Positions 1 through 11,845 of a stretch of 32,071 nucleotides of DNA are shown piece by piece; the stretch's first letter is position 1; each line of letters begins with the position of its first letter. The notes under the pieces were generated by a model. The model searched no databases and was not told the origin of the DNA. It worked only from the letters and a program-made list of their open reading frames with translations. This stretch comes from a virus. The DNA is taken from positions 1 to 32,071 of IMG/VR virus record IMGVR_UViG_3300035127_000001, one strand, 5' to 3'. The position numbers and the translations under genes are program-made.

Positions 1-1193
1 CACTTCAAAAAGAAGCCGCTGACCAAATAAAAGCAATTGAAGACCAAAAAGAAGCCGACGCAATCGAAGCCGCTAAAAAGAAAATGGAAGCGGACAAAGA
101 AGCCGCTGAAGCTGCGATTGAATTGGCAAGATTTGAATTAAGCGAATATATACGCGCGAATAAGTCGAAGCTTGATTCAGATAAATTCTTAACACAAGAA
201 GCGGTTGCAGAAGAAACGCGAAGGCTTGAAGCACTTGCCGAAAAGCGTCGGGAATATGAAGCTTTAAGACTTGAAGAAGGTCAGATTTCCCAGCTTGAAT
301 ATAATGAAGCTATTGCAACAATAAACGAAGAAAATCAAGCTTCTATTGACGAACTGAATCAAGCCAGAAAGGAAGCTGAAGCTGAACAAAGGGCAATCGA
401 CGCGGAAAACGAATTGATATTTCTGGAAGAACAAGCGTCAACGCAATTTGAAGCGTTAAGCAGAAGACTTGAAAACGAACGTTTGGCTGAAATAGCCAAC
501 GCCGAAAAGACTGGGGCTGACATAGATAAAATAAATCAGAAGTACGCGCAAAGAAAACAGAATCTTGACGAATCCGTAAAGACCGCGCAACTTCAAGGAA
601 CGCAACAAACGCTTGACGCCGTTTCTTCGGCTTTAGGAGAACAGACAAAAGCGGGGAAAGCCGCCGCGATTGCTTCGACTTTAATTTCGACCTATCTGGG
701 GGCGCAACAAGCTTTTACTTCTTTGTCTTCTATTCCTATTGTCGGAACTGTTTTAGGAGTTGCCGCCGCCGCCGCCGCTGTTGTTTCTGGTTTATCAAGG
801 GTAAGCAAGATAAGAAGCACCCCAGACAAATATTCAAAAGGAGACATTTTAAGGGGGCGAAGTCATTCACGGGGCGGAATACCTTTTTCAATTGCTGGGG
901 GTCTTGGTTTCGAAGCTGAAGGCGGCGAAGCTTTAATCAATAAAAAATCAACTTCAATGTTTGCGCCTTTGCTTTCTGCGATTAATGTTGCTGGCGGCGG
1001 AAAGAAATTCGCTGACGGTGGAATTGCTGGCGCAACTTCAAGTTTAAGTTCGAAATCATTAATTGATTACGACCTTCTTTCGTTAAGAATAGCAGAAGCA
1101 AACACGACATTACCCGCGCCAGTTGTAAGCGTAGAAGAAATAAACACAGTTAACAACAATGTAAGTGTTATCGAAACGCTTGCAACGTCTTAA
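1..1193 (+). CDS. Tail tape measure protein, 3' part (allele A)
   Basis: This is the C-terminal part of the tape measure protein, which sets tail length and sits in the tail lumen. The reading frame is open from base 3, so the gene begins outside the linear window and the first Met (84) is internal. The protein is a long charged coiled coil rich in Glu, Ala, Lys and Gln, then an Ala/Gly-rich hydrophobic stretch (about 640-800), then a conserved end containing GRSHSRGG and GGEALINKKS. It aligns with the gene at 29830-32071 at a constant offset of 31108, and joining that gene at 31108 to base 1 keeps frame (2472 nt, 823 residues). Allele A differs from the other end mainly in residues encoded by about 436-620. 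Downstream is a small membrane protein gene. The assignment is firm for the family; the junction is inferred. Confidence 0.88.
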   Translation, partial: LQKEAADQIKAIEDQKEADAIEAAKKKMEADKEAAEAAIELARFELSEYIRANKSKLDSDKFLTQEAVAEETRRLEALAEKRREYEALRLEEGQISQLEYNEAIATINEENQASIDELNQARKEAEAEQRAIDAENELIFLEEQASTQFEALSRRLENERLAEIANAEKTGADIDKINQKYAQRKQNLDESVKTAQLQGTQQTLDAVSSALGEQTKAGKAAAIASTLISTYLGAQQAFTSLSSIPIVGTVLGVAAAAAAVVSGLSRVSKIRSTPDKYSKGDILRGRSHSRGGIPFSIAGGLGFEAEGGEALINKKSTSMFAPLLSAINVAGGGKKFADGGIAGATSSLSSKSLIDYDLLSLRIAEANTTLPAPVVSVEEINTVNNNVSVIETLATS

Positions 1194-1239
1194 TTATAAA
1201 TTGTATATTAGCAAAAAATTAATATTTAAAAATTAAATT

Positions 1240-1632
1240 ATGAAAAAGTTTATTTTTGTACTATCAACATTGTTTATGTTGTTCGCTTTGCCTTTAACGG
1301 TGTTCTGTTCTGGCGGCGACGTATTGACAGAACCTTCAGGGCTTGAAGTTTACTTCGTTTCAATTGCCGCGCTTGCCGCGATTGTGCTTCCTGTAACTAA
1401 CTTTATTAAAAATCTGATTGGTTCTTCTGGGGGCTGGACGGTTGTCTTGTCTTGGATTGTTTCAATCGGGCTTTCTTTTATTGGTTGGTGGTTAAAACTT
1501 GGAATGTTTGAAGGAATAACGATTGTCTGGGTTTTGATTTACGGGGTTGCTGTTGGCATGGTTGCGAATTCGCTTTTCGATATTGGAATTGTAAACGCGA
1601 TTTTAAGCCTGTTTAAGCAAAACAAAGAATGA
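1240..1632 (+). CDS. Small membrane protein, holin-like
   Basis: A 130-residue hydrophobic protein. A signal-peptide-like start (MKKFIF, hydrophobic run to about residue 23) is followed by three likely membrane segments at roughly 36-58, 66-86 and 92-115 and a short basic tail (FKQNKE). No true lipobox is present, because the residue before Cys23 is Phe. Size, three helices and position as the last gene of the late block, just after the tape measure, fit a holin or other lysis/membrane protein, but no family motif is clear. A second, better holin candidate lies at 18292-18753. The gene ends 27 bp before a bidirectional terminator. Function is inferred from topology and context only. Confidence 0.6.
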   Translation: MKKFIFVLSTLFMLFALPLTVFCSGGDVLTEPSGLEVYFVSIAALAAIVLPVTNFIKNLIGSSGGWTVVLSWIVSIGLSFIGWWLKLGMFEGITIVWVLIYGVAVGMVANSLFDIGIVNAILSLFKQNKE

Positions 1633-1659
1633 ATGATATAAATATACTTGAAGACATAA

Positions 1660-1694
1660 AAAAAGCCGTCAGAAATAAAATTTGACGGCTTTTT
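1660..1694. terminator. Bidirectional terminator between convergent blocks
   Basis: A perfect 12-bp inverted repeat (AAAAAGCCGTCA at 1660-1671, its complement at 1683-1694) has an 11-nt loop. On either strand it reads as a GC-containing stem followed by a T-run. It lies between the end of the late plus-strand block (1632) and the end of the minus-strand block (1710), so it should stop both transcripts. Confidence 0.88.
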
Positions 1695-1709
1695 GTTTGT
1701 TTTACGAAG

Positions 1710-2120
1710 TTATCTGAACAAGCTTCGAAGTCCTTTTGATTTTTTTGTGTCGGTTTCTTGCTTTTCAATTATCTTACCAAGATTCAAAGCTTCTTCTTTT
1801 ATCTGGTCAGCTTTTTCTTGATGTTTATTCGCTTGTCCTTGCTTCTTCAGGACGGTAAGTTTCGCCTTCTTGATTTTATCCATTTCAGCGCGAAGGGCTG
1901 GAAATGTTTCTTCAGCGACTTCAATCATTGTTTCGTAATCAGAAAAGGCTTCACAAAGCTTTTTGAAAGTGTCGTCGTCCGCTTTGTTTCCGAATTTGTG
2001 AATTGCAAGGGTTGAATCAATCGAACACCTTTCAAGTTCCGACAATCTTTGTTCAACTGACCATTTAAGGAAGGTCAAGCCGTAAAGATAATTACGTTGT
2101 TTTCTTGTGTTAACACTCAT
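1710..2120 (-). CDS. Hypothetical coiled-coil protein
   Basis: A 136-residue protein rich in Lys, Glu and Gln. It is predicted mostly helical, with a long charged heptad-like region from about residue 75 to 125 and a basic end (LRSLFR). No enzymatic motif or membrane segment is visible. It is the last gene of the minus-strand block, three bases after the preceding gene and just before the shared terminator, so it should be the most promoter-distal early gene. I do not recognise the family; a DNA- or protein-binding accessory role is possible but unsupported. Confidence 0.7.
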   Translation of the reverse strand: MSVNTRKQRNYLYGLTFLKWSVEQRLSELERCSIDSTLAIHKFGNKADDDTFKKLCEAFSDYETMIEVAEETFPALRAEMDKIKKAKLTVLKKQGQANKHQEKADQIKEEALNLGKIIEKQETDTKKSKGLRSLFR

Positions 2121-2123
2121 TTG

Positions 2124-2357
2124 TTATTTGTTTTTATGACGCCCGTTGACTGTTAAAGTTGTATGTTTGAACTTCAGCTTCACGCCGTCGATATTAGTAA
2201 ATAAATTAAGATAAAATTCTTTTAATCGAAACGGTTTAAAATTGTCCCAAATATTCAAGGGTGAATCTTTGTTTCTAGTTGCGAATTCCTGAACTGGGTC
2301 GTCTTTTTCATTTCTTAAAAGAATTACTTCGTCAATAAGTTTTCGGTTTTTATTCAT
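2124..2357 (-). CDS. Hypothetical small protein
   Basis: A 77-residue basic protein starting MNKNRKLIDEV and ending in a Lys/Arg-rich tail (NGRHKNK). It has no cysteine motif, signal peptide or membrane helix. Its start overlaps the end of the upstream gene by 8 bp, as expected for a translationally coupled phage operon. The family is unrecognised, and it is called on operon context and coding compactness. Confidence 0.6.
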   Translation of the reverse strand: MNKNRKLIDEVILLRNEKDDPVQEFATRNKDSPLNIWDNFKPFRLKEFYLNLFTNIDGVKLKFKHTTLTVNGRHKNK

Positions 2358-2616
2358 CTTTTAAAAGGTCGCTTTCGTGAAGTATAACTTTTCTATTGCG
2401 TTTCGGCGCGTCTGGCTGTCTAATTTCAACAAAATTATAATTGACAGTTCGACCGAAGTCAACCTTTTCTTCTTTGAATAATTCCCTTAAAGCTTTTAAC
2501 ACGCGTCTTTTAATTTCCTTGTTTAATTCATGGTCAAGAACAAGGACGGGGAACTTTTTCGCATTGCGTTTTTGTGCGCTTAGTTCTTCGATAATTTTCA
2601 AGACTTGTTCTTTCAT
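2350..2616 (-). CDS. Hypothetical small helical protein
   Basis: An 88-residue, highly charged protein. The N-terminal half looks helical (MKEQVLKIIEELSAQKRNAK, then an LRELFKEEKVDFG segment) and the C-terminal half has a short beta-like stretch (VNYNFVEI). The start overlaps the stop of the winged-helix gene upstream by 4 bp (ATGA type), indicating coupling. No recognisable domain. Its pairing with a DNA-binding protein suggests a regulatory or replication accessory role, which is inference. Confidence 0.62.
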   Translation of the reverse strand: MKEQVLKIIEELSAQKRNAKKFPVLVLDHELNKEIKRRVLKALRELFKEEKVDFGRTVNYNFVEIRQPDAPKRNRKVILHESDLLKDE

Positions 2617-2906
2617 GCTTCAGGAATTCCGACTTGATTTTCTTTCAATTTCATATACAGGGAAACGGCGTCTTTTTTACTTTCAAGACTATATTGAACG
2701 TAAGTAATTTCACGACCGTATTTGTTATGTGAAGAAATTGGATTTGAAATAATTTTTAAACCCATATTTCGAAGGTTTGAAATTCTAGCGGTCAAGTTCC
2801 AGACGCCAGAAGATAACATCATTGTTCGGCGGTCAATAAAAAGCCGATTGATAAGTTCAAAAAGAACTTCTTGAACCTGACTTTCAGGTAATGGAATCTT
2901 TTTCAT
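2613..2906 (-). CDS. Winged-helix DNA-binding protein (HTH_39-like)
   Basis: A 97-residue protein. After an N-terminal helix (VQEVLFELINRL), residues about 30-50 carry the pattern LTARISNLRNMGLKI, which matches the recognition helix and wing entry of phage helix-turn-helix proteins that assort arginine/leucine as ARIxxLRxxG. It is followed by a beta wing around NKYGREITYVQYSLE. This is typical of small phage DNA-binding proteins (HTH_39-type) involved in control or replication; the exact role is unknown. The leader contains AATCAAT and AATTCAATTATTATG just before the start. It is followed at once by three coupled small genes. Confidence 0.7.
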   Translation of the reverse strand: MKKIPLPESQVQEVLFELINRLFIDRRTMMLSSGVWNLTARISNLRNMGLKIISNPISSHNKYGREITYVQYSLESKKDAVSLYMKLKENQVGIPEA

Positions 2907-2916
2907 AATAATTGAA

Positions 2917-3069
2917 TTAAATTGATTTGACTTTCTTTCTTGTAATTATATAAGCTTCAGGGCTTTCTTTGTGTTTTCGGAAAAGATAAGCGGCGAAGCT
3001 GAAGAACGCGACTAAATAAAGCACGTAGCCGACAATAAAAACGATAATAAATAAAAGAATTACTTTCAT
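2917..3069 (-). CDS. Single-pass small membrane protein
   Basis: A 50-residue ORF. It starts MKVILLFIIVF, a strong hydrophobic helix that runs to about residue 32 (YVLYLVAFFSFAAYLF), followed by a basic tail (RKHKESPEAY, TRKKVKSI). The topology is one or two membrane passes with a positively charged cytoplasmic end. The start ATG is 7 bp after a GTTTAATTTTAAACC element. Such tiny membrane proteins in early operons sometimes modify the host envelope or exclude other phages, but nothing here proves that. Confidence 0.6.
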   Translation of the reverse strand: MKVILLFIIVFIVGYVLYLVAFFSFAAYLFRKHKESPEAYIITRKKVKSI

Positions 3070-3085
3070 TTTTTAAGGTTTAAAA

Positions 3086-3184
3086 TTAAACAAATAAACT
3101 AAAAACAAAAATCCAGAATAACACACCTAACAAAAGAAGTGTTAAAAGGATTAGCAGACGGGTTCTTTTAGTGTACTTCTTCAT
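3086..3184 (-). CDS. Tiny membrane peptide
   Basis: A 32-residue ORF. A basic head (MKKYTKRTR) is followed by a single hydrophobic helix to the end (LLILLTLLLLGVLFWIF). It lies between the 53-residue gene and the other small membrane protein in the same direction, and its stop codon is part of the GTTTAATTTTAAACC element. A real gene is plausible from position and topology, but the size is at the limit of what can be called. Confidence 0.45.
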   Translation of the reverse strand: MKKYTKRTRLLILLTLLLLGVLFWIFVFSLFV

Positions 3185-3186
3185 AT

Positions 3187-3348
3187 CTATAAATTTAAAG
3201 ATTGTTGCGGGTTTTCAAGCTTTTCAATCATTTCGTCAACTTCTTTTTCAAGACGTTTCGCTTTGTTGAGGTCGTTAAAATTCCGCGTTCTGAAGTAAGT
3301 CTTTTGCGCCTTGCGCAATTCTTTAACCTTAATTAAAAATTCATTCAT
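3187..3348 (-). CDS. Small conserved helical phage protein
   Basis: A 53-residue ORF, all helical and charged. The pattern VKELRKAQKTYFRTRN then LNKAKRLEKEVDEMI resembles a short protein often met in early regions of Bacteroidetes phages and mobile elements; its function is unknown. The leader has AATCAATCAAT directly before the ATG, the same arrangement as other early genes here. The gene ends 3 bp before the next small gene. Confidence 0.65.
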   Translation of the reverse strand: MNEFLIKVKELRKAQKTYFRTRNFNDLNKAKRLEKEVDEMIEKLENPQQSLNL

Positions 3349-3358
3349 ATTGATTGAT

Positions 3359-3736
3359 TTAAAAAGGACAATCGGACGCGCCTTTGCTGGCGTTCTGTCT
3401 TAATGTCAATAATTGAATGTTATCAATTGTATAACCTTTTGAATTATCAATTCGGTCAATAGTAGCATTTTGCCCGCGCTTTCCTTTGCTTATAAGATAG
3501 CCAGTATCAGAACAGAACTTTCGGAATTGTGAAATTGTTATTTCGAAGGGCTTGTTCCTTCTTCTGGCATTACCTTTAAATTGATTGAAGCGCGTTCCAA
3601 CAGGGTCAAATTCACGGCGTTTTCTTGCATAGTGTTTATGACAAAGACCGCCTTTTCTTTTAATCGGTTCGTTTGTGCAATTATAAGCGCAACAATACCG
3701 CCCCGCTTTCTTTTTGGCTTCACTTATGCAAAACAT
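3359..3736 (-). CDS. HNH-type endonuclease-like protein
   Basis: About 125 residues from the ATG at 3736; an upstream ATG at 3772 would give 137 residues but overlaps the previous gene by 29 bp, so the shorter form is preferred. N-terminal cysteines and histidines (CCAYNC at 15-20, CHKHY at 32-36) form a zinc-knuckle-like unit. The C-terminal part holds ATIDRID, then SKGYTIDNIQLL and NASKG, the usual end of phage HNH proteins in which the final Asn-rich helix completes the metal site. A His before the IDRID segment is not obvious, so catalytic activity is uncertain. It is probably a free-standing HNH nuclease or a DNA-binding relative. Confidence 0.72.
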   Translation of the reverse strand: MFCISEAKKKAGRYCCAYNCTNEPIKRKGGLCHKHYARKRREFDPVGTRFNQFKGNARRRNKPFEITISQFRKFCSDTGYLISKGKRGQNATIDRIDNSKGYTIDNIQLLTLRQNASKGASDCPF

Positions 3737-3743
3737 AAGCTGT

Positions 3744-3944
3744 TTATTCGTCAGCCGAAGAAAGGTATTCAATCAAAGCCAGTTCAGGCTTCTTCCAGTT
3801 ACTAACACGTAAACGGGTGTAAAGCGTAACTTTAGACATTCCAAGCAAGTCGGCAAGTTCATTGTCGTTTTGTGCCTTCTGGCGCAAATCATAAGCCTTG
3901 TTTGTGGCTTCCAGTTGTTCAATAGATGCTTGTTTCTTAGTCAT
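3744..3944 (-). CDS. Small helix-turn-helix protein
   Basis: 66 residues from the ATG at 3944 (MTKKQASIEQLEAT); an earlier in-frame Met at 3986 would extend back over the candidate promoter and is less likely. Residues about 28-50 contain NDNELADLLGMSKVTLYTRL, a classical helix-turn-helix in which the GMSKVTL turn and recognition helix are clear. It is likely a small regulator or a subunit that recognises phage DNA. It lies directly after the DnaA-like gene with an AATCAATT leader and could control the distal part of the early block. Confidence 0.7.
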   Translation of the reverse strand: MTKKQASIEQLEATNKAYDLRQKAQNDNELADLLGMSKVTLYTRLRVSNWKKPELALIEYLSSADE

Positions 3945-3969
3945 TTTATTAAATTTATAATTGATTAAA

Positions 3970-3991
3970 GGTTTAAAATTAAACAAAAATA
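3970..3991 (-). promoter_or_regulatory. Candidate promoter/operator before HTH gene
   Basis: Read on the minus strand this stretch holds TATTTTTG (complement of 3984-3991), which fits the Bacteroidetes TAnnTTTG box, overlapped by GTTTAATTTTAAACC (complement of 3970-3984). The latter recurs at 3077-3091 and 9004-9019. No convincing -33 TTTG is found upstream, so activity is uncertain. Confidence 0.35.
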
Positions 3992-4471
3992 TTAAATATT
4001 TGCAGCCCCGCCGAAATATTTTCCGACGAAGAAAGAAGTTTCAATCGGTGTGTCGTCCCCTATTTCAGTTCTGAACCAGTCAAGGAAGGCGCAAAGTTCT
4101 TTTATTTTTTTATTCGTGCTTTCTTCTTTGACTTCAAGTTCTTTGATTTCGTCAAGGGCTTCAATAACTTGTTCGTAAACTTCGGGGCTTGTAAGCTGGT
4201 TAGTTTCATAAAGTTTATTGAATTCCTTTATACTGTGTAATACTGAAGCGTGGTCGTAAGTGCCGTTTAAGGCTCTGCCAATGGTAGCCAAAGAAGCTTT
4301 TGTCTTTTCCTTACAGATTTTACAATAAACCTTTTTCATGTCTGAAACAATTCGCTTCCTTGATTTCATCCCTATATCTGGAACGCCTGAAAACTGTTGC
4401 ACAAGGAATTTAATCCTTGTGCATTTATCAGTTAAAAACCTTTCGTAATCGACTGAATTATTCATTTTCAA
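3992..4471 (-). CDS. DnaA domain-IV-like DNA-binding protein
   Basis: A 159-residue protein. Residues about 38-85 match the DNA-binding domain IV of the bacterial initiator DnaA: a first helix (RKRIVSDMKKVYCKICKEK), then a SLATIGRALNG helix-turn-helix and the signature YDHASVLHSI at 72-81. The AAA+ ATPase of DnaA (Walker A/B) is absent, so the protein can bind DnaA-box-like sites but not hydrolyse ATP. It may recruit or compete with host DnaA at a phage origin. The C-terminal half is acidic and helical. The start overlaps the upstream nuclease gene by 14 bp; a second Met at 4465 is an alternative start. Confidence 0.82.
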   Translation of the reverse strand: MKMNNSVDYERFLTDKCTRIKFLVQQFSGVPDIGMKSRKRIVSDMKKVYCKICKEKTKASLATIGRALNGTYDHASVLHSIKEFNKLYETNQLTSPEVYEQVIEALDEIKELEVKEESTNKKIKELCAFLDWFRTEIGDDTPIETSFFVGKYFGGAANI

Positions 4472-5603
4472 TCATGTTTAAAGTGATGGTTTTATAATAT
4501 TCAACGCCTAATTTAACAGACGTCAAAAGAACTTCTTCAAGTTCATAATCGCGGACAAAAGAAAACGTTTTGACGCGTTCTTCTTTGGTATAAAGGTCAG
4601 AATCTTCGTAAAGATAATTACGTTTGAATTGTTCAATTGCTTCTTGATATTCTGGAAGCGTGTCGTCAATTATTCCGTGCTGAAAACAAAATCTTTTGTA
4701 TTCGTCGGCGAAAACATCGGGCGGGCAATCAACAAGGCAATGACGAAGGCGGAAAATATCAGCGTTATATAAATACAAATAAGCGCGCCCTTGCCATTCA
4801 TAGCCAGTTGTTAAAGAAGCTTGCATAAAAGTTCGGGGATTCCAAGAACATTTTGTGTCGTCAATTACAAGCGCGTCAACTGTTTTTTCGCTTCCTTCAA
4901 CTTCCATGTCTTTAAATTCGGTTATTACGTCGGCTTCGCCTGTAATATGATTTTTATATTCACGCTTTTCGTTTTTCACGTACATAATACCGTCAACGAA
5001 TGATATTAAATTGATTGCGTCTTCTTCAGCTTGAAGACCCTTGCGAAGCTTCTTGTCTGTTACTTCTTCTTTGAAACCCTTTTCGTTTTCAAGCCAGACT
5101 TCTTTTATATAAGTTTTTGCGCCTTGCGAAAGTTCTGGCGGTCTGGCGTTACGTTCTTTTAAGTCCCAAAGACGCGCGTTTTGTGTTGGTGTTAATCCTT
5201 TTGGTTGTTTAAGCCTGTTTTTGTAGTCGTCGCGCTTTTGCATTTGCGAAGGGGTCAAGGTCTTTCCGTCTTTTACTTTTGCGTTCCAGTCGTCAAGTTC
5301 AGCTTGTTGTTTTTCGGTTAAACCGATTGGCGTTCTTTTGGCAAGTTCTAAAGCTTCCATTTCTTCGCGTTGCTTTTCGGTTAAGCCGTGTCTGATTAAG
5401 CCGCCAGCAAGCAACCCGATTTTTGAACTTCTGAAGAAAATTTCTTCAATAGGGGTTTTAAAGTTTTTAGTCAAAAAATTTGAACATTCAATAACGTTAT
5501 CGTTGCCAACACCGTCGCCGAATTTAATGTTTTGAGAACCGCAAGTCGGAACGTCAAACATACACTTTTCACATAAATTTGATTTAGAATCTTTTGCTTT
5601 CAT
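4458..5603 (-). CDS. PD-(D/E)XK nuclease-like protein with LTxxQ repeats
   Basis: 381 residues from the ATG at 5603; a Met at 5654 would overlap the preceding gene and lies before the standard leader. The N-terminus carries four cysteines (CEKC at 11-14, Cys21, Cys near 37) that could bind zinc. A charged middle segment has repeated units starting GLTEKQ, GLTEKQ, TLTPSQ and GLTPTQ. The C-terminal half has GEAD (about 220) and VIDDTK (about 246-251) followed by a helix with YEWQGRAYLYLYN, the order expected of PD-(D/E)XK exonucleases of the Cas4/RecB/YqaJ type. Next to a Rad52-like annealing protein it is the likely 5'-3' exonuclease of a phage recombination pair. The central Asp-Lys core is seen; activity is inferred. 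Confidence 0.74.
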   Translation of the reverse strand: MKAKDSKSNLCEKCMFDVPTCGSQNIKFGDGVGNDNVIECSNFLTKNFKTPIEEIFFRSSKIGLLAGGLIRHGLTEKQREEMEALELAKRTPIGLTEKQQAELDDWNAKVKDGKTLTPSQMQKRDDYKNRLKQPKGLTPTQNARLWDLKERNARPPELSQGAKTYIKEVWLENEKGFKEEVTDKKLRKGLQAEEDAINLISFVDGIMYVKNEKREYKNHITGEADVITEFKDMEVEGSEKTVDALVIDDTKCSWNPRTFMQASLTTGYEWQGRAYLYLYNADIFRLRHCLVDCPPDVFADEYKRFCFQHGIIDDTLPEYQEAIEQFKRNYLYEDSDLYTKEERVKTFSFVRDYELEEVLLTSVKLGVEYYKTITLNMIENE

Positions 5604-5628
5604 TTTACTTGAATTTAATTGATTAATA

Positions 5629-5856
5629 TTAAGCTTCAATAAGTTTGTTTTCAAATATTGTTAGTCGTCCCGTGTGAACCCTTCTTGATTCAAAAGACGC
5701 GAAAGGCGTTTCGTCAAGGCTTAAAACTTGCGCTTCATTGCCTTTGTCGTTCCTTAGTTCTTCGGCTAATTGTGCCGCTTTGACCATTGCTTCACGGTCA
5801 TTTCTAGCGTGAATATATAAGTCGAGTGTTACGGTATATCGTTTTTCTTTACTCAT
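5629..5856 (-). CDS. Hypothetical conserved small protein
   Basis: 75 residues. It opens with a beta strand (YTVTLDLYIHARND), continues with a helix (REAMVKAAQLAEEL) and ends with a second strand-rich part (FESRRVHTGRLTIF). This ferredoxin-like alternation, with an N-terminal strand followed by an Ala-rich helix, is common in small phage early proteins of unknown role. It lies 5 bp after the 109-residue gene and 25 bp before the nuclease start, in the same transcript started by the promoter at 6217-6247. Confidence 0.65.
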   Translation of the reverse strand: MSKEKRYTVTLDLYIHARNDREAMVKAAQLAEELRNDKGNEAQVLSLDETPFASFESRRVHTGRLTIFENKLIEA

Positions 5857-5861
5857 AGGAA

Positions 5862-6191
5862 TTAAACTGAAGTTATATTTGTTTCGATTTCTCGAAAAAG
5901 AATAGTTTCTTGCTTATTTGTCAAGTGAATTTCTTCACCTTCTTTGTCGAAAACAAGTGCTTCAATGTTGTCAACGGTTAAACCGTCAGAAGAAAAACAC
6001 GGAGGCGTCAGATAGTCGCCAGCGTCATAAGTCCCAGTTTCAAAACAAGAAAAGCTTGCAAATATAAGGAACTTGCCAGCTTCAACTTCTTCGTCTTGAA
6101 CTTCCTTGCTTCCTTCTAATCCGTCCCAGTCAAGACAAACTTCAATTGAAGGAATGTTTTTTATAAGACTGTTAAATTTAAAATGATTCAT
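5862..6191 (-). CDS. Hypothetical conserved early protein
   Basis: 109 residues, acidic. Recognisable pieces are TYDAGDYLTPPCF around 55-67 and a C-terminal IEALVFDKEGEEIHLTNKQ segment. This arrangement recurs in early regions of Bacteroidetes phages, but no function is known to me. It is the first gene after a strong terminator and is served by its own promoter (6217-6247), with a 5' leader of about 25 nt containing ATCAATCAAT. It therefore heads a transcription unit that goes on to the nuclease and DnaA-like genes. Confidence 0.68.
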   Translation of the reverse strand: MNHFKFNSLIKNIPSIEVCLDWDGLEGSKEVQDEEVEAGKFLIFASFSCFETGTYDAGDYLTPPCFSSDGLTVDNIEALVFDKEGEEIHLTNKQETILFREIETNITSV

Positions 6192-6216
6192 ATTGAATTA
6201 TATTGATTGATAGGTA

Positions 6217-6247
6217 CAAATTTAAACCAAATAATTTAAAAAACAAG
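6217..6247 (-). promoter_or_regulatory. Minus-strand promoter of the 6191 unit
   Basis: On the minus strand, TAAATTTG (complement of 6217-6224) matches the Bacteroidetes -7 box TAnnTTTG, with CTTG (complement of 6244-6247) exactly 19 bp upstream as the -33 element. Transcription should start about 5 nt downstream, giving a short leader before the ATG at 6191. The -33 element lies inside the terminator stem of the preceding unit. Confidence 0.65.
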
Positions 6248-6281
6248 CGGAAACGGTAAAAAAATAAACCGAATCCGCTTG
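6244..6281 (-). terminator. Terminator after the Rad52-like gene
   Basis: The inverted repeat CAAGCGGA (6244-6251) / TCCGCTTG (6274-6281) has an inner GGT/ACC pair (6255-6257, 6268-6270). On the minus strand the stem is followed by six T residues. It lies 5 bp beyond the stop of the 6286-6978 gene and insulates it from the next unit. Confidence 0.8.
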
Positions 6282-6285
6282 CGTG

Positions 6286-6978
6286 TTATTTGCTTTCTTC
6301 AATGGACTTAACAAAAAGATTCAAATACTTCTTCAATAAATCCTTCGAAGCTTCAGTTTCTTCAGCGGTTTCAAGATACTTATTATAAGTGTGTTCAACT
6401 TCGCTGACTGTTGCGGCTTGTTTTAAGAAGTGGTCAAGTCGTTCAAGCTTCTTTTTATCGGCGTGGTTCATTTCTGGAATTTCCGCTTTCTTTTGGTCAG
6501 CGTGTTCTTGTCCGTAAATGTCCCAGCAAAAACCGAATTCGCTTGCGCACTTTTTAAAGGCGTCAGAAGCGGCGGCTTTATATCCGTTTCCAATATCAGA
6601 AGCGTAAGTTGTAGTAACATTTTTATTCACTTCTGTTTTAAGTTGAAGATAATGTTGTCCAAACTGTTCGCGTTTAATAGTCATTCCGTTCAGCCAGATA
6701 GTCAAACGACCGTGAACAATAACTTCTTTTGAAGATGGGATATATTCACGGGAAACAACTTCAAAACAAAAGTTCCCGCCAGTTACTAACGTTACAAGGG
6801 CTTTAACGTAAGCCGCCTTAACTGATTTGTAAGTAAAGCCGCTTTTGTCAGTCTTGATTTCAACTTCGCTGTCTGGCGTTTTGCGGTTGATAATCTTCAT
6901 TTGACTTGGGTCAAATACAGGTTTATGACCTTCGAATAAAGCCAGTTCTGACTTTGTGAAATAATTTGCTTTTCTCAT
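6286..6978 (-). CDS. Rad52-like single-strand annealing protein
   Basis: A 230-residue protein. The N-terminal two thirds have the order of a phage Rad52/Sak-type recombinase: YKSVKAAYVKALVTLV, a strand pair around CFEVVSREYIPSSKEVIVHGRLTI, and the signature DIGNGYKAAASDAFKKCASEFGFCWDIYG at about 127-155, in which the Gly-Tyr-Lys-Ala-Ala-x-Asp-Ala-Phe-Lys-Lys run is typical. Such proteins anneal complementary single strands made by an exonuclease. The C-terminal about 60 residues form a charged helical tail, likely for partner or ssDNA-binding-protein contact. The gene follows the Spo11-like gene by 11 bp and ends at a strong terminator. Confidence is good for the family; strand annealing is inferred. 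Confidence 0.8.
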   Translation of the reverse strand: MRKANYFTKSELALFEGHKPVFDPSQMKIINRKTPDSEVEIKTDKSGFTYKSVKAAYVKALVTLVTGGNFCFEVVSREYIPSSKEVIVHGRLTIWLNGMTIKREQFGQHYLQLKTEVNKNVTTTYASDIGNGYKAAASDAFKKCASEFGFCWDIYGQEHADQKKAEIPEMNHADKKKLERLDHFLKQAATVSEVEHTYNKYLETAEETEASKDLLKKYLNLFVKSIEESK

Positions 6979-6989
6979 AATTGAATTTA

Positions 6990-7868
6990 TTAATCGTTGT
7001 TTAATTCATCGTTTACAAATGACTTTAATTGAAGCCTATATTCAGAACGTTCTTCTTCTTCGGTTTCCATTAAGTAAGAATAAGCTTCTTCGTCAAATAT
7101 GTCGTTGATTGCATCAAGACAAAGACGTTGAAGTTTCTTAGGGTCAACCGCGTCAAGTTCAACTTGTCCAAGACCGTCCCAGTTCGCGGTTCTTGAATCT
7201 GTTTTTTTAGCTGGCGCGGGCGGCAAGTTCCATTCAACGACCTGTTCTTCAAGCAAGGCAATTCTTTTGACTTCAACTGTTACGCCTAAGTCAATAAAGT
7301 TTTGTTGAATACTTCGGGGAATATCTTCGCCGCTGGGGTCATAGTCCCCAAAATATAAAATAATTGGAATTTTGCCTTCGTTTCTGGCAAGCTTAAACCG
7401 CTTTGAAGCGTCGTAAAGAAAAGTTAAAGACGGATAACCTTTGCACGGGGAAAGCGCAACGTCCATTTCGTCGCAAGGGCTTTGAAAAACACCTTGAAGG
7501 GCTTTCTTTTCGATAAATACTTCAGGGTAATAAGATTGATTTTCCCAACGGTTTTTTGAATAGTGGTTCATCCATGCGCGAAGCTGGCGTTTTGCGTAAC
7601 TTACAGAACTTTCAACAGTTGTTTCTTCATAATCTGTAAAGCCAATTGTTTCGCGGTCGTTGTCTGAAAATGTGTCGAAGTCAACAAGACCTTGCCAGCG
7701 GGCTTGAATCATAGCGTTTACAACGCGTTTGTAATGCTGGATTGTGTTTGTCATTCCGCGCGCAACAAGTCTATAATGAAGCCCGCGAATAGTTAAAACG
7801 CCCTTTTCATATTGTTCAATTTCTTCAAGCGCGTTTTCAGTTATCCAAGTACGATTAAATTTATCCAT
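6990..7868 (-). CDS. Spo11/Topo VI-A-like Toprim protein
   Basis: A 292-residue protein with two recognisable parts. Residues about 22-70 form a winged helix with LTIRGLHYRLVARG, Tyr32 falling where Spo11 and topoisomerase VI subunit A carry the DNA-attacking tyrosine, followed by AMIQARWQGLVDFD. Residues about 116-215 form a Toprim fold with VFIEKKAL (Glu120) and ILYFGDYDPSG (Asp175 and Asp177), the metal-binding acidic set, then RIAL and a PAKKTDSR stretch. Family members cleave DNA with a covalent tyrosine link or are inactive relatives. The gene starts a unit with promoter 7898-7928 and precedes the Rad52-like gene, so a role in replication or break-directed recombination is likely but not shown. 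No subunit B (GHKL ATPase) is present. Confidence 0.76.
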   Translation of the reverse strand: MDKFNRTWITENALEEIEQYEKGVLTIRGLHYRLVARGMTNTIQHYKRVVNAMIQARWQGLVDFDTFSDNDRETIGFTDYEETTVESSVSYAKRQLRAWMNHYSKNRWENQSYYPEVFIEKKALQGVFQSPCDEMDVALSPCKGYPSLTFLYDASKRFKLARNEGKIPIILYFGDYDPSGEDIPRSIQQNFIDLGVTVEVKRIALLEEQVVEWNLPPAPAKKTDSRTANWDGLGQVELDAVDPKKLQRLCLDAINDIFDEEAYSYLMETEEEERSEYRLQLKSFVNDELNND

Positions 7869-7897
7869 AATTGAAAAATGATTGATTAATAATAGTA

Positions 7898-7928
7898 CAA
7901 AATTAAACTAAATAATTGAAACACCAAA
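7898..7928 (-). promoter_or_regulatory. Minus-strand promoter of the Spo11-like/Rad52-like unit
   Basis: On the minus strand TAATTTTG (complement of 7898-7905) fits TAnnTTTG and lies exactly 19 bp from TTTG (complement of 7925-7928). This is the best consensus promoter in the early block. The ATG at 7868 follows about 30 nt later, after a leader with AATCAATCA. Both this promoter and the one at 6217 continue with TAC right after the TTTG. Confidence 0.7.
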
Positions 7929-7944
7929 TAAAAACAGTAAAAAA

Positions 7945-8112
7945 TTAAACCAGATAAATATTCGGGTAAAACTTACCTTCAGGACTAAATTCAAATTGAA
8001 CTTCTTTTGTGTCCGAATAGATTGAAACTGTTGTTCCGATTAAAGTATTTACTGAAGTAAAGTTGCAATTCATTTGTTTCAAGGTGTCCTTGAAGCGTTC
8101 TAAGTCTGTCAT
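7945..8112 (-). CDS. Hypothetical 55-residue protein
   Basis: A short ORF from MTDLERFKDTLKQM to FYPNIYLV. It has an N-terminal helix followed by beta-rich segments (TLIGTTVSIYSD, KEVQFEFSPEGKF), suggesting a small alpha/beta fold. The start overlaps the stop of the upstream zinc-finger/HNH gene by 4 bp, and the stop (GGTTTAA) lies about 17 bp upstream of the -33 box of the next unit. Supported by coupling and gap-free packing; no family recognised. Confidence 0.6.
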   Translation of the reverse strand: MTDLERFKDTLKQMNCNFTSVNTLIGTTVSIYSDTKEVQFEFSPEGKFYPNIYLV

Positions 8113-8594
8113 ATATTTACGGTTGTTGAACGAATTAAAAAATCAAGTTTATAAGCTTTTGCTGGGTTCGCGTGAATCCATAAATGACCGCGACGGGACA
8201 CGGCAAGCCAGAAAGGAACGTAATTCAGAAGCTTTCCTTTTCGTCCCGCTTTGTGATGAACTTCACGGGCTTTTATTAAACCTTTATTCCTGAATATTTC
8301 ATTCGGATTGTGAACTTCTGACGGGTCAATTATGCCGTCAAATACAGCTTTACAGACAGGGCAATATTTATTTTCTTCCTTTGACAAAAAAGTCTTTCGC
8401 TTTTTTGTGTAAGTATAGGATTCGCGCCGCCTTTTATCGCTTACCTGTTTAATCGGTTTACGTTTCTTATGTGGCTTGTCCTTCTGGTCTGCATAAGCGC
8501 AAGCTGGGGAACAATATTTGTCGGTTGACCTGTAAAGTTTGAATTCTTTGTTGCAACCCTTACGGGCGCAAATTCGAGTTGTTTTAAATTTCAT
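8109..8594 (-). CDS. Zinc-finger / HNH-like nuclease (NinG-like)
   Basis: 161 residues, very basic. An N-terminal zinc finger is visible as Cys9, Cys14, Cys28 and Cys32; a second pair sits at KYCPVC. The C-terminal part contains EVHHKAGRKGKLLNY followed by VSRRGHLWIHANP, with the double His and final His spaced like HNH or NinG/Rap-type proteins that act on recombination intermediates. A metal-binding nuclease of the recombination group is the best call; which branch is uncertain. Start and stop are both coupled by 4-bp overlaps with neighbours. Confidence 0.68.
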   Translation of the reverse strand: MKFKTTRICARKGCNKEFKLYRSTDKYCSPACAYADQKDKPHKKRKPIKQVSDKRRRESYTYTKKRKTFLSKEENKYCPVCKAVFDGIIDPSEVHNPNEIFRNKGLIKAREVHHKAGRKGKLLNYVPFWLAVSRRGHLWIHANPAKAYKLDFLIRSTTVNI

Positions 8595-8734
8595 TTGCTT
8601 TCGTCTTTTTTAAATATTGGTTCGTTGTAATCTTTAGTCATTAATTCATAGAATTCAATTAAGTCGTCGATTCTTGAATTATCAATATTCGGATTCTTTT
8701 CGAGTTCCGAACGAATGTCTGAAATTTTAGTCAT
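8591..8734 (-). CDS. Hypothetical 47-residue acidic protein
   Basis: An ORF from MTKISDIRSELEKNP to FKKDESK, helical and acidic in the first half. Its start overlaps the stop of the preceding gene by one base and its stop overlaps the start of the zinc-finger/HNH gene by 4 bp. Without it a 140-bp gap would interrupt an otherwise gapless operon, which supports it. No function can be assigned. Confidence 0.6.
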   Translation of the reverse strand: MTKISDIRSELEKNPNIDNSRIDDLIEFYELMTKDYNEPIFKKDESK

Positions 8735-8955
8735 TATTTCAATATAGGGTATTTAATAAAGTAAAAGTCTTTTACATTATAATCAACGAACAAATCGGGG
8801 GTCGTTTTCCTTACTTCTTTTAAAAGACGGATATTATCAAGAAGGAAAAGCTTTTTGAAGAAGCGTTCTTTTAAATGTTCAGGAATAACAAGCTGACGCG
8901 TATATAATTCTATAAGCTGACGCTTGTTTATTTGGATTTTAACAAAGCTTATCAT
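8734..8955 (-). CDS. Hypothetical small protein
   Basis: A 73-residue basic helical protein (MISFVKIQINKRQL to FYFIKYPILK), rich in Phe, Leu, Lys and Arg. No metal motif, and the hydrophobic residues are scattered rather than forming a membrane helix. A 57-bp gap upstream contains the end of a long palindrome (9002-9021) and an AAATCAACC leader. Family unrecognised. Confidence 0.58.
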   Translation of the reverse strand: MISFVKIQINKRQLIELYTRQLVIPEHLKERFFKKLFLLDNIRLLKEVRKTTPDLFVDYNVKDFYFIKYPILK

Positions 8956-9001
8956 TTTGAATAAAGGTTGATTTATGTTGATTATACGTAAACGAACTTA
9001 A

Positions 9002-9021
9002 AAGGTTTAAAATTAAACCTT
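9002..9021. promoter_or_regulatory. 20-bp palindrome, possible operator
   Basis: AAGGTTTAAAATTAAACCTT reads as a 9-bp arm on each side of an AA/TT centre. It includes the stop codon of the RHH gene. Partial copies (GGTTTAAAATTAAAC) occur at 3077-3091 and 3970-3984, all in gaps between minus-strand genes. The symmetry suits a dimeric regulator such as the adjacent RHH protein; this is inference. Confidence 0.45.
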
Positions 9022-9192
9022 CTTTCGTAAATCAGAAATAAGGATTTTAGAACCGCTATGTTGTTTTATATAATTCCGAATGAATTTATAAAGTTCCTGA
9101 CTGGGGTTCGAAAAGTTTTCCTTGCAAAGTTCTTCAAATTGAATTTTGATTTCTTCTTCGACTTTGCAGTTGATTATTTTGTCTTTTGGCAT
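9013..9192 (-). CDS. Small ribbon-helix-helix-like protein
   Basis: A 59-residue ORF. The first strand (IINCKVEEEIKI), a helix (QFEELCKEN), a turn (SNPSQELYKF) and a second helix (IRNYIKQH) reproduce the CopG/Arc ribbon-helix-helix pattern. Members bind DNA as dimers and act as repressors or antitoxins. The start overlaps the end of the upstream gene by 19 bp. The stop lies within a 20-bp palindrome that could be its own operator. The fold call is by pattern only. Confidence 0.62.
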   Translation of the reverse strand: MPKDKIINCKVEEEIKIQFEELCKENFSNPSQELYKFIRNYIKQHSGSKILISDLRKKV

Positions 9193-9419
9193 GGTGTAAG
9201 CTGTTTTAATAAATTATGAATTCCACGACCGTCTTTTATTCCTTTTCCAGAGAACCAGCCAGTATAAGGAAAAACGGAAATTTCACTTCCTTTATAGTAG
9301 AATTTTAGTGTTGTATCACTGTGGTAATGTATTTCAAAGCCACGCGACACAATTTGTTCGTAAGCGTATTCAAGTCGCTTCGGTTGTTCTTCGGTCTTCT
9401 TGATTTCTATATGCGACAT
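9174..9419 (-). CDS. Hypothetical conserved early protein
   Basis: 81 residues. The core reads GFEIHYHSDTTLKFYYKG then a FPYTGWFSGKGIKDGRGIHNLLKQL end, an alternation of short strands and a conserved Gly-Lys-Gly/Asp-Gly-Arg-Gly segment. This pattern is frequent in Bacteroidetes phages near DNA-processing genes; function unknown. It follows the 117-residue gene with a 1-bp gap. Confidence 0.65.
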   Translation of the reverse strand: MSHIEIKKTEEQPKRLEYAYEQIVSRGFEIHYHSDTTLKFYYKGSEISVFPYTGWFSGKGIKDGRGIHNLLKQLTPCQKTK

Positions 9420-9420
9420 T

Positions 9421-9774
9421 TTACAGTTCTTTAACGGTTCTTAATTTTAAAGCCTTTATAAAGTCAGCGTTCATCTTTGGCGAATCTTCGGTATAAATTA
9501 AAAGGTTAAATCTTAAACCGAATAAGCTTGTTGATTCATTGACTAAAATAGTCGTATGATGTTTATTGACTTCTTTGAAGTGTTCGAAATGTTCTTCGTC
9601 ATTCGAAACGAATCCGATTATAAGACTTTTGCCTTCAATCGGTAATGAATGATAATTGTTCATAATAATTGATTCGCCGTTATAGTGCTTATGAAAAGCC
9701 CGACGCGCGTCGCCTTCTGTTCTTGCGCTAATGATAGAACCGTGAAAAGTTCCAGTAACTACATAAGTATTCAT
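9421..9774 (-). CDS. Hypothetical alpha/beta protein
   Basis: 117 residues. It opens with a strand (NTYVVTGTFHGSIISA), a helix containing DARRAFHKHYNG, a middle strand (GKSLIIGFVS), a His-rich section (EEHFEHFKEVNKHH) and a final strand/helix pair. No catalytic pattern is certain. The leader has AAATCAATTTAT before the ATG. It sits between the 50-residue gene and the 81-residue gene in the early block, and the family is unrecognised. Confidence 0.63.
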   Translation of the reverse strand: MNTYVVTGTFHGSIISARTEGDARRAFHKHYNGESIIMNNYHSLPIEGKSLIIGFVSNDEEHFEHFKEVNKHHTTILVNESTSLFGLRFNLLIYTEDSPKMNADFIKALKLRTVKEL

Positions 9775-9785
9775 ATAAATTGATT

Positions 9786-9938
9786 TTAATTATAAGATAC
9801 AGACCAATACAGAACAGCAAATTCTTTCGGGTGCTTGTCTTTCCGTTCAAAGAATTCAGCTTCATAGGAAGCCAGAAAAGCGAAATCCCGAAGAACTTGT
9901 TTGTCTGGAATACATTGTTTAAACCTAATGTTCGACAT
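9786..9938 (-). CDS. Hypothetical 50-residue protein
   Basis: A short ORF from MSNIRFKQCIPDKQV to LYWSVSYN with a helical middle (LRDFAFLASYEAEFFERK). It fills the gap between the DnaJ-like zinc protein gene (3 bp upstream) and the 117-residue gene (12 bp downstream) on the same strand. No known motif. Confidence 0.55.
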   Translation of the reverse strand: MSNIRFKQCIPDKQVLRDFAFLASYEAEFFERKDKHPKEFAVLYWSVSYN

Positions 9939-9940
9939 AA

Positions 9941-10234
9941 TTAAACTTTTGCTTGTTGCTTCACGCGGCTTTTATCAAGCTTTATGTCTTCGACCTGAAC
10001 AACAACAGGAAGTTCTTTTTCTTGTTCCAGTTCTTTCAATGCTTCCTTCAATGGAACTTCGAAAGAATTGACGAAGCGGGTTCTTCCTTCGCCGTTACAA
10101 GCTGGACAATCTTCAACGAACTTCATTTTGCGGAATACGCGCGTCTTTGTTCCAGTTCCGTCGCAAACAGCACAAGTCGCGTAAGTGAAGACTTTCTTCA
10201 CAACAACGAATTCATGATTATTATTTGACGTCAT
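9941..10234 (-). CDS. DnaJ-type zinc-finger small protein
   Basis: 97 residues. Two CxxCxGxG motifs, CAVCDGTG at 21-28 and CPACNGEG at 43-50, form one zinc ribbon of the kind found in DnaJ and in many small phage proteins. The J domain is absent. The C-terminal third is acidic then basic (LKELEQEKELP, DKSRVKQQAKV). It is the first gene of the minus-strand block, next to the divergent control region, so it is likely among the earliest expressed. Zinc binding is well supported; the partner is unknown. Confidence 0.72.
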   Translation of the reverse strand: MTSNNNHEFVVVKKVFTYATCAVCDGTGTKTRVFRKMKFVEDCPACNGEGRTRFVNSFEVPLKEALKELEQEKELPVVVQVEDIKLDKSRVKQQAKV

Positions 10235-10350
10235 TTTACTAATTTTTACTAAGGTTTGAAATTGAACCGAATAAAAATATTAATTCACAAACCTTAAAAA
10301 TAATAAACAATATTGTTAAAAGTTGAAATAACCTGAAATAAAGCACGTTA

Positions 10351-10390
10351 GCAAAACAACAGGTAAAACAACGTAAAACAAAGTAAAACA
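10351..10390 (+). repeat. 10-bp phased direct repeats (GTAAAACA)
   Basis: Three units of NNGTAAAACA at 10361-10370, 10371-10380 and 10381-10390 follow a related GCAAAACAAC unit at 10351-10360. The period is exactly 10 bp, close to one helical turn, so bound proteins would line up on one face of the DNA. Iteron-like or operator function is inferred. Confidence 0.7.
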
Positions 10391-10440
10391 AAAATAATGA
10401 AACCAACAAATTGACGTGAATAAATAGTTTAAAATTATTC

Positions 10441-10469
10441 TTGAATGTTTGTTTGTTAATATATATTTG
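10441..10469 (+). promoter_or_regulatory. Late promoter, probably leaderless
   Basis: TATATTTG at 10462-10469 matches the Bacteroidetes -7 box; TTG at 10441-10443 lies 18 bp upstream as the -33 element. The ATG of the protease gene is at 10475, only five bases after the box, about where transcription should begin. The start codon is fixed by the conserved beginning of the protease (MKATIYISGKIG). Confidence 0.66.
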
Positions 10470-10474
10470 CCTAC

Positions 10475-11845
10475 ATGAAAGCGACAATTTATATTTCTGG
10501 TAAGATTGGCAAGGGAACGACGCTTGTTGATGTTATTCGTCAATTCAAGTCGTTTGAAGACCCGACTGAAGTCGAAGCTTTTATTCATTCCGAAGGTGGA
10601 AACGTTGAAGAAGGCGACGGAATTTACAACTATTTAAAAGGTCTTGACAAAACGATTCCAGTTAGAACAGTTACAGACAAAGCTTATTCAATCGCTGCAA
10701 AGATTTTTGCTGCTGGACGTGAAAGGATTGTTGAAGATGTTGACAAAGCTTTAATGATTCATTTTGCTTGGGCTAAGGTTGAAGGTAACGCCGACAAGCT
10801 TGAACTTGTTGCTGAAGCTTTACGGGAACTTGAAGACGAATTCGCGACGTTTTATTCTGAATTTCTGGACGTGGACGAAATAACCGTTCGGAATCTTCTT
10901 GACAATGAAACTTTTGTTTCTGGAACTGAAGCGGTCGAACTTGGATTTGCTACACAAGTAAAAGTTGCCGCTGAAGCGGTGGCTGAATTAAATATTCATA
11001 AATCAAATTTTAATAAGATGACTGAAAAATCAAAGAAAAACAAAGGTTTGGCTTTGCTTCAAGCAATGGCTGAATTTGTTGGCATTGAATTAAAGACGAA
11101 AGACGTCGAAGTCAACGCTGAAATGACGCTTCAGGATTCTAACGGAACGGAAATTGTATTTCCTGACCTTGACAGCGGGGACACCCCGAAAGTCGGGGAC
11201 GCGGCAACAATTGACGGTTCAGCAATTCCAGACGGTTCTTATATTATGCCTTCGCTTGAAGAAGCAACGGTTGTATTTACCGACGGGAAAATTTCTGAAA
11301 TTATACCGAAAGAAGACCCTGAAGAAGAAACTGACACAGAAGCCCAAGCTTCAGCGAAAAAGAAAGGCGAAAAGAAGCCTGAAGTTAACGCTGAAGAAAT
11401 AAAAGAAGTTTCTATCTGGTCTGTTGAGGTTACGAATACAACGTTCGAAGTCGGCGAAACTGTAATGTATCAATACGACGGCGAAAGTTATCCAGTTTCA
11501 GCGGGTGAATTCCGATTGAATGACGGAACGAAAATTGTTACTGACGCGTCTGGCGTAATTGTATCAAAAGAAGAAGCTGGCACGGCTGAACCGCCTGTTG
11601 AAGCTGAAGCTTCTTTTGACAAACTACTTGAAAAGGTTACTGAAAAAGTAACTTCGAAAGTTACCGCTGAAATAAACGCTGAATTTGAAGCTAAGTTGAC
11701 CAAGAAGGATAACGAAATAAAAGCTTTAAAGGCTAAAATAGGCGGAAAAGAAATCAACGCTGAAGAAAAAAACGTTGATACTTCGAAAGAAGAAAAACCG
11801 AATTATCAAGCATCCGTTTTGTTAAGGCGGACAAAACAAAAATAA
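10475..11845 (+). CDS. ClpP-like prohead protease with scaffold-like C-terminus
   Basis: 456 residues. Residues 1-165 form a ClpP/S14-type protease: MKATIYISGKIG, HSEGGNVEEGDGIY (38-51), the nucleophile Ser72 in AYSIAAKIFAAG, and His96 in LMIHFAW; the usual late Asp is not obvious in VSGTEAVELGF. After about residue 185 comes a lysine-rich link, two small beta-like segments with VNAE repeats, an acidic stretch, and a C-terminal coiled coil (LLEKVTEKVTSKVTAEINAEF) that looks like scaffold. Such protease-scaffold fusions guide prohead assembly and then cut themselves and the capsid protein. It is the first gene of the late block, directly before the major capsid gene. Confidence 0.85.
   Translation: MKATIYISGKIGKGTTLVDVIRQFKSFEDPTEVEAFIHSEGGNVEEGDGIYNYLKGLDKTIPVRTVTDKAYSIAAKIFAAGRERIVEDVDKALMIHFAWAKVEGNADKLELVAEALRELEDEFATFYSEFLDVDEITVRNLLDNETFVSGTEAVELGFATQVKVAAEAVAELNIHKSNFNKMTEKSKKNKGLALLQAMAEFVGIELKTKDVEVNAEMTLQDSNGTEIVFPDLDSGDTPKVGDAATIDGSAIPDGSYIMPSLEEATVVFTDGKISEIIPKEDPEEETDTEAQASAKKKGEKKPEVNAEEIKEVSIWSVEVTNTTFEVGETVMYQYDGESYPVSAGEFRLNDGTKIVTDASGVIVSKEEAGTAEPPVEAEASFDKLLEKVTEKVTSKVTAEINAEFEAKLTKKDNEIKALKAKIGGKEINAEEKNVDTSKEEKPNYQASVLLRRTKQK

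Follow-up and report, generated by a model that had tools for sequence, protein, structure and literature searches.

Mini-A was reportedly named in 2020, and the abstract of that year is said to separate Mini-A, Topo VI and Topo VIII by a C-terminal motif. In outline, it is a truncated homolog of the Topo VI A subunit that is found in bacterial and archaeal viruses and comes without a B subunit. It is presented as a subfamily of type IIB topoisomerases in excerpts of four papers (PMC7614492, PMC8185306, PMC11302465, PMC8084294), and the protein of Pseudomonas phage NP1 is the exemplar named in a figure legend (PMC7614492). The excerpts of these four papers report no tested function. A search of the open-licence literature by title and abstract found no biochemical study of Mini-A and no link between Mini-A and an annealer.

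Topo VI is an A2B2 enzyme whose B subunit is a GHKL ATPase. As described in excerpts of PMC13040014, the nucleophile of the M. mazei enzyme is Y106, its metal site consists of E202, D254, D256 and E342, and R102 and E342 form a clasp that restrains cutting. The active site is split over two subunits, with the tyrosine about 10 Å off in the resting DNA-bound state. Spo11 is a eukaryotic meiotic protein with B-like partners and a known role in making breaks: the double-strand breaks are linked to its tyrosine at the 5' ends, and recombination starts from them. MksG and JetD (Wadjet) also have a Toprim fold and no B subunit; their partners are the SMC-type MksBEF and JetABC, and the CAP domain of MksG is described in an excerpt as lacking the tyrosine (PMC10123090).

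Identification of a Mini-A gene

The window, meaning the whole stretch of DNA analyzed, is a linear virus record of 32,071 bases that may be a fragment. A coding sequence at 6990–7868 on the minus strand, with its ATG at 7868, encodes a protein of 292 aa. The minus strand is open throughout this interval and the plus strand is closed by many stop codons. The protein matches phrog_6247, annotated as "DNA topoisomerase", with E = 2.3e-62. The gene is under purifying selection: comparison with the copy at locus L068 gave dN 0.232, dS 1.10 and dN/dS of about 0.21. The PHROG match, the phage relatives and the dN/dS show that this is not a chance ORF. Pfam and NCBIfam, queried with the window's own protein, returned no family of note. 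The sole phmmer result against PDB sequences, an actin-related match, was dismissed as meaningless.

The NP1 protein also falls in phrog_6247, and a single BLASTP comparison aligned it with the window protein at 36% identity over 263 aa (E 2e-43). Judged from sequence, the assignment of the gene to Mini-A is good. The two proteins share homologous sequence, PHROG, size, a virus-borne setting and the lack of a B subunit in relatives. The window copy differs from NP1 in a slightly shorter N-terminus, in the Rad52-like gene adjoining it and in its clade of phages, for which the hosts of the nearest named records are Bacteroidota. Sampled members of this clade are 48–73% identical to the window copy.

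Relatives were found by tblastn in 76 of 50,697 phage records, and 62 of them cover at least 80% of the query. Among the matches listed (the best 60 of the 76), the nearest, at 60–63%, are from phages of Alistipes, Bacteroides, Elizabethkingia and Parabacteroides. Next in the same best 60, at about 25–39%, come Pseudomonas, Salmonella, Brevundimonas, Flavobacterium and other phages and the archaeal virus HCIV-1. The wider set of relatives was drawn from a viral-contig scan (70 loci), a profile scan (80 further loci kept of 585 confirmed) and bacterial and archaeal genome contigs (80 loci kept of 210).

The earlier note on this DNA had proposed a little described, compact enzyme resembling Spo11 and Topo VI-A. 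The compact, Spo11/Topo VI-A-like character stood, as did the full catalytic set and the missing B subunit; the novelty did not, the family being the published Mini-A. Its description as smaller than Topo VI-A also held, with 292 aa against 356–445 aa in 11 archaeal copies.

A tRNA search of the window found none. A match to the Bacteroidetes-type promoter consensus at 7898–7928, upstream of the Mini-A start by 30 bases, was dropped, two chance matches being expected in the window. A slightly laxer pattern occurred upstream of only two (L003 and L026) of the nine relatives tried and was not used.

Predicted fold

An AlphaFold2 model built from a 121-sequence alignment had a mean pLDDT of 95.1. 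About residues 104–258 (7095–7559, minus strand) form a Toprim fold. The top VIA-align match was Topo VI-A 1d3y (Z 10.9, 3.0 Å, 138 residues). Further Topo VI-A chains (9o0g at Z 10.7, 2zbk, 9o8p, 2q2e and 9o7o) scored Z 9.3–10.7, MksG 8b7f Z 10.3, JetD 7til Z 9.9 and Spo11 8uru Z 8.4 (2.9 Å, 129 residues). These superpositions cover the Toprim half only, about residues 103–258. By homology to Topo VI-A, Spo11 would also share the position of the nucleophile.

The N-terminal domain (residues 1–71; 7656–7868, minus strand) occupies the place of the Topo VI-A 5Y-CAP. Modeled alone, the N-terminal 104 residues gave a pLDDT of 86.9, and residues 1–71 matched winged-helix chains (Fur/Zur, histone H1/H5, PadR, RTP and others) with Z reaching 7.6 over some 60 residues. 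No Topo VI-A chain was among the structural matches listed for this model, and Foldseek returned nothing for it at E ≤ 0.001. The model thus supports the winged-helix class and not Topo VI-A in particular; the identification with the 5Y-CAP draws on sequence and position. The structure prediction and superposition called for in the earlier note were accordingly favorable for the Toprim half, which superposes best on Topo VI-A, MksG/JetD and Spo11, and for the winged helix at the level of its class.

With the whole model, Foldseek against the PDB ranked M. mazei Topo VI first (E 2.2e-3) with a poor global TM, which was put down to domain placement. Against viral predicted structures there was one clear match, A0A7U3MW70 (152 aa), taken by its length to be a fragment of the Mini-A of Parabacteroides phage PDS1.

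Profile comparisons point in the same direction at low scores. The only match of the family profile to PDB sequences was Topo VI-A 1d3y (E 0.37), and TP6A_N was matched by 9 of the 121 family members (best E 0.0013). Against a Topo VI-A profile, hhalign gave a probability of 11% and E 0.0027 for one comparison, with the Tyr region aligned only when the alignment was forced to be global. By itself this profile link to Topo VI-A is weak. The case is made by the profile matches, the structure and the shared invariant residues together.

Conservation of the active site

Residues were counted in a simple alignment of 247 related loci and the window (248 rows), in which gaps reflect broken frames, contig ends and start calling. 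Tyr32 (7773–7775, minus strand), the predicted nucleophile and counterpart of M. mazei Y106, aligns with the TIRDLYY of Topo VI-A; all 239 rows that have a residue there show Tyr, the other 9 of 248 being gapped. Arg28 (7785–7787, minus strand), the counterpart of the clasp residue R102, is kept in each of the 238 rows not gapped at its position, and Glu120 (7509–7511, minus strand), the Toprim acid equivalent to E202, in 246 of 246. The Toprim DxD, Asp175-Tyr-Asp177 (7338–7346, minus strand), corresponds to D254/D256; Asp175 is present in 248 of 248 rows and Asp177 in 247 of 248. The sole exception is the archaeal virus HCIV-1, with Asn for the second Asp.

Glu237 (7158–7160, minus strand) lies in VELDAV. 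This Glu, part of the ELDA motif, never varies across the alignment (243 of 243 rows with a residue) and aligns with the E of Topo VI-A KxEIEAL. From the alignment and the order of residues it is predicted to be the counterpart of E342. When six archaeal Topo VI-A proteins were aligned together with Mini-A, the invariant columns included T26, R28, Y32, E120, G144, D175, D177, G180, D224, E237 and A240.

The whole Topo VI-A active site, Arg/Glu clasp included, thus appears to be present in Mini-A, because the Arg28–Tyr32 spacing is 4, as for R102–Y106 in M. mazei Topo VI, E237 falls on the KxEIEAL Glu and the E and DxD are invariant. Mini-A and Topo VI-A have in common the winged helix followed by Toprim, the TIRxLxY motif, the E, the DxD and the C-terminal ExxA motif. 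They share 18–22% identity and differ in length and in the B subunit, which Mini-A lacks.

These results bear out the ORF and anatomy given in the earlier note, namely a winged helix with Tyr32 in RGLHY followed by a Toprim domain with Glu120 and Asp175/Asp177. Homologs lacking the tyrosine, which the note had named as evidence against its proposal, were absent from the rows with a residue. It had named a Tyr32 far from the Toprim metal site as well. Such a distance in one monomer model is no valid refutation, because the Topo VI active site, as described in the excerpts of PMC13040014, is common to two subunits.

ATPase partner and proposed activity

No HATPase_c_3 domain (PF13589) was found in any of 47 records (the window, 29 virus contigs and 17 phage genome records), and no HATPase_c domain (PF02518) in any of the 18 records searched. 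All 14 control genomes were positive for both. The earlier note had stated that no GHKL partner is encoded. The window alone, a possible fragment, as the virus contigs may also be, cannot settle this, and the 47 records taken together agree with it. Mini-A as sampled here therefore lacks the B subunit that defines the A2B2 Topo VI.

We infer dimerization, the cleavage chemistry, independence of ATP and the biological role: Mini-A probably cleaves DNA as a dimer, through its tyrosine and with neither ATP nor a B subunit, as an accessory in phage DNA metabolism. By homology it would form a homodimer with two shared active sites, in which the winged-helix Tyr32 of one subunit attacks DNA at the Toprim metal site (Glu120, Asp175, Asp177 and Glu237) of its partner. 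This would produce a staggered double-strand break with Mini-A linked to the 5' ends by phosphotyrosyl bonds, and the Arg28/Glu237 clasp would restrain cutting. Breaks would be made and perhaps resealed. No directional strand passage is expected, because the ATPase gate is absent.

With the Topo VI-A active site and clasp apparently kept and no ATPase partner found, Mini-A would be the Spo11/Topo VI cutting core reduced to a minimum. This analysis adds two points that did not turn up in searches of the open-licence literature: the match to the Topo VI-A active site with its clasp, and a recombination cassette that occurs naturally with and without Mini-A (below).

It is conceivable, if doubtful, that Mini-A is instead an ATP-independent topoisomerase that cuts and reseals, relaxing or untangling replicating phage DNA, possibly with host partners. 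Kinship with Topo VI-A and the position among replication genes fit such an activity, as does one Topo VIII reported in an excerpt to relax DNA without ATP (PMC7614492), but the lack of an ATPase partner in 47 of 47 records leaves no obvious strand-passage gate.

Gene neighborhood

The accessory cleavase preferred here lies in a region of replication and recombination genes, and the setting of Mini-A says no more than that. The next gene downstream, 11 bases from Mini-A, is at 6286–6978 (minus strand) and encodes a Rad52-like annealer of 230 aa (phrog_37405, E 4.8e-22). PF04098 (Rad52/Rad22) matched all four annealer homologs scanned at E ≤ 0.1 (best E 1.7e-6); the window's own annealer scored E 0.0059 and 17.0 bits, under the Pfam cut-off of 20.3. 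By these profile matches the neighbor is assigned to the Rad52 family.

The same cassette holds an exonuclease gene at 4458–5654 (minus strand; start codon TTG as called; phrog_5715, E 1.7e-28), which is kept in L003, L038, L068, L281 and L283. Upstream of Mini-A, at 8109–8594 (minus strand), is an HNH-type gene (phrog_7108, E 2.7e-9; phrog_1271 HNH, 1.2e-6). It is kept in five of five loci compared and forms the other edge of the site in relatives without Mini-A. At 3992–4471 (minus strand) the cassette also encodes a 159-aa protein that matches the DnaA C-terminal DNA-binding domain (PF08299, E 1.6e-8, above the cut-off) and is possibly an origin-binding protein. Beyond this DnaA-like protein, the annealer and the nucleases, Pfam and PHROGs recognized no polymerase, primase or helicase for DNA among the early genes scanned in window positions 1–10700 of this possibly incomplete record.

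The order HNH, Mini-A, Rad52, exonuclease is found in the window, in L003 and L068 and in L038, whose Mini-A is split over two frames. In the records of L273 and L275 the HNH, Rad52 and exonuclease genes are all kept; only small ORFs occupy the Mini-A site, and no Mini-A was found anywhere in their 29 kb. Mini-A is thus present in four and absent from two of the six annealer cassettes known here, and a profile scan for further ones found none. Relatives with and without Mini-A in one recombination cassette offer a natural comparison for its function.

Elsewhere the neighbors are diverse. In close relatives, 2 of the 127 neighbor proteins scanned matched the annealer family phrog_37405. Neither this set nor a second one of 130 neighbor proteins showed a common partner by PHROG, and a recombination gene was dominant in neither. 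PaMx25 and NP1, both Nipunaviruses, have a different annealer, Sak4, as the gene next to Mini-A. Microbacterium phage Fizzles has a Cas4-family exonuclease next to Mini-A and a recombinase three genes away. In other phages thymidylate synthase, endonuclease V or genes without known function adjoin it.

Mini-A and Rad52 as a fixed pair were rejected in view of the cassettes without Mini-A and the diverse neighbors across the family; the data suggest an annealer link that is neither universal nor exclusive. The neighborhood survey that the earlier note had asked for therefore recovered the Rad52 cassette in four loci and varied surroundings in the rest. Joint transcription with an annealer, as the note had it, is half sustained: the annealer is real and on the same strand, but co-transcription is suggested by the spacing only. 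The functional coupling it had drawn from this is weak, given the L273 and L275 cassettes and the low count of phrog_37405.

Breaks made by Mini-A could initiate replication. That it is the break-maker for recombination-dependent replication, with protein-linked breaks, resection by the exonuclease and Rad52-like annealing, is nevertheless unlikely. The complete catalytic set, the adjoining Rad52-like gene, the exonuclease in the cassette and Sak4 in the Nipunaviruses are consistent with this role; the persistence of the annealer–exonuclease cassette without Mini-A, the absence of a dominant recombination gene and neighbors such as thymidylate synthase and endonuclease V argue against it. The form of the idea in which Mini-A acts as a viral Spo11 in this phage group, making programmed protein-linked double-strand breaks from which a dedicated exonuclease and the Rad52-like annealer would launch recombination-dependent replication, we hold to be quite improbable. 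If true, recombination would here be started outside eukaryotes by three genes and without ATP, from a cassette that exists naturally with and without Mini-A.

A plain Toprim endonuclease of the MksG/JetD type, its winged-helix tyrosine not a nucleophile, is very unlikely: 8b7f and 7til superpose on the Toprim half about as well as Topo VI-A, with weak matches to DUF2399 (7 of 121 members) and JetD_C (1 of 121), but Tyr32 is invariant at the Topo VI-A spacing to Arg28, the MksG CAP domain has no candidate Tyr in the excerpt of PMC10123090, and the recognized neighbors are phage DNA genes in place of an mksBEFG or jetABCD operon.

Further observations on relatives

In place of Rad52, the gene downstream of Mini-A in several close relatives encodes a protein of about 220 aa with a very acidic tail (L077:12944–13603, L006:9088–9756 and similar). 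It falls in phrog_9513 and phrog_6141, each matched by 8 of the 127 neighbor proteins. Very acidic tails are frequent in single-strand-binding proteins.

Very divergent Mini-A copies occur in a Cellulophaga phage (L085:7118–8140) and a Chryseobacterium phage (L088:7974–9002). They read SSRGWAY or SSRGWCY instead of TLRQLYY, with Arg and Tyr kept.

The annotation of Parabacteroides phage PDS1 (L073:15138–16024) divides Mini-A into a "DNA topoisomerase" gene and a "DNA primase" gene. The two are a single Mini-A whose frame is broken, through a sequencing error or because the gene is dead; Bacteroides phage C1_85S2P has an intact copy that is nearly identical. Relatives are also found in contigs titled Nitrosopumilus or Nitrosopumilaceae, Streptomyces, Azospirillum, Paenibacillus and others (L192, L193, L204, L231 and many bacterial contigs), and some of these contigs are long and chromosomal.
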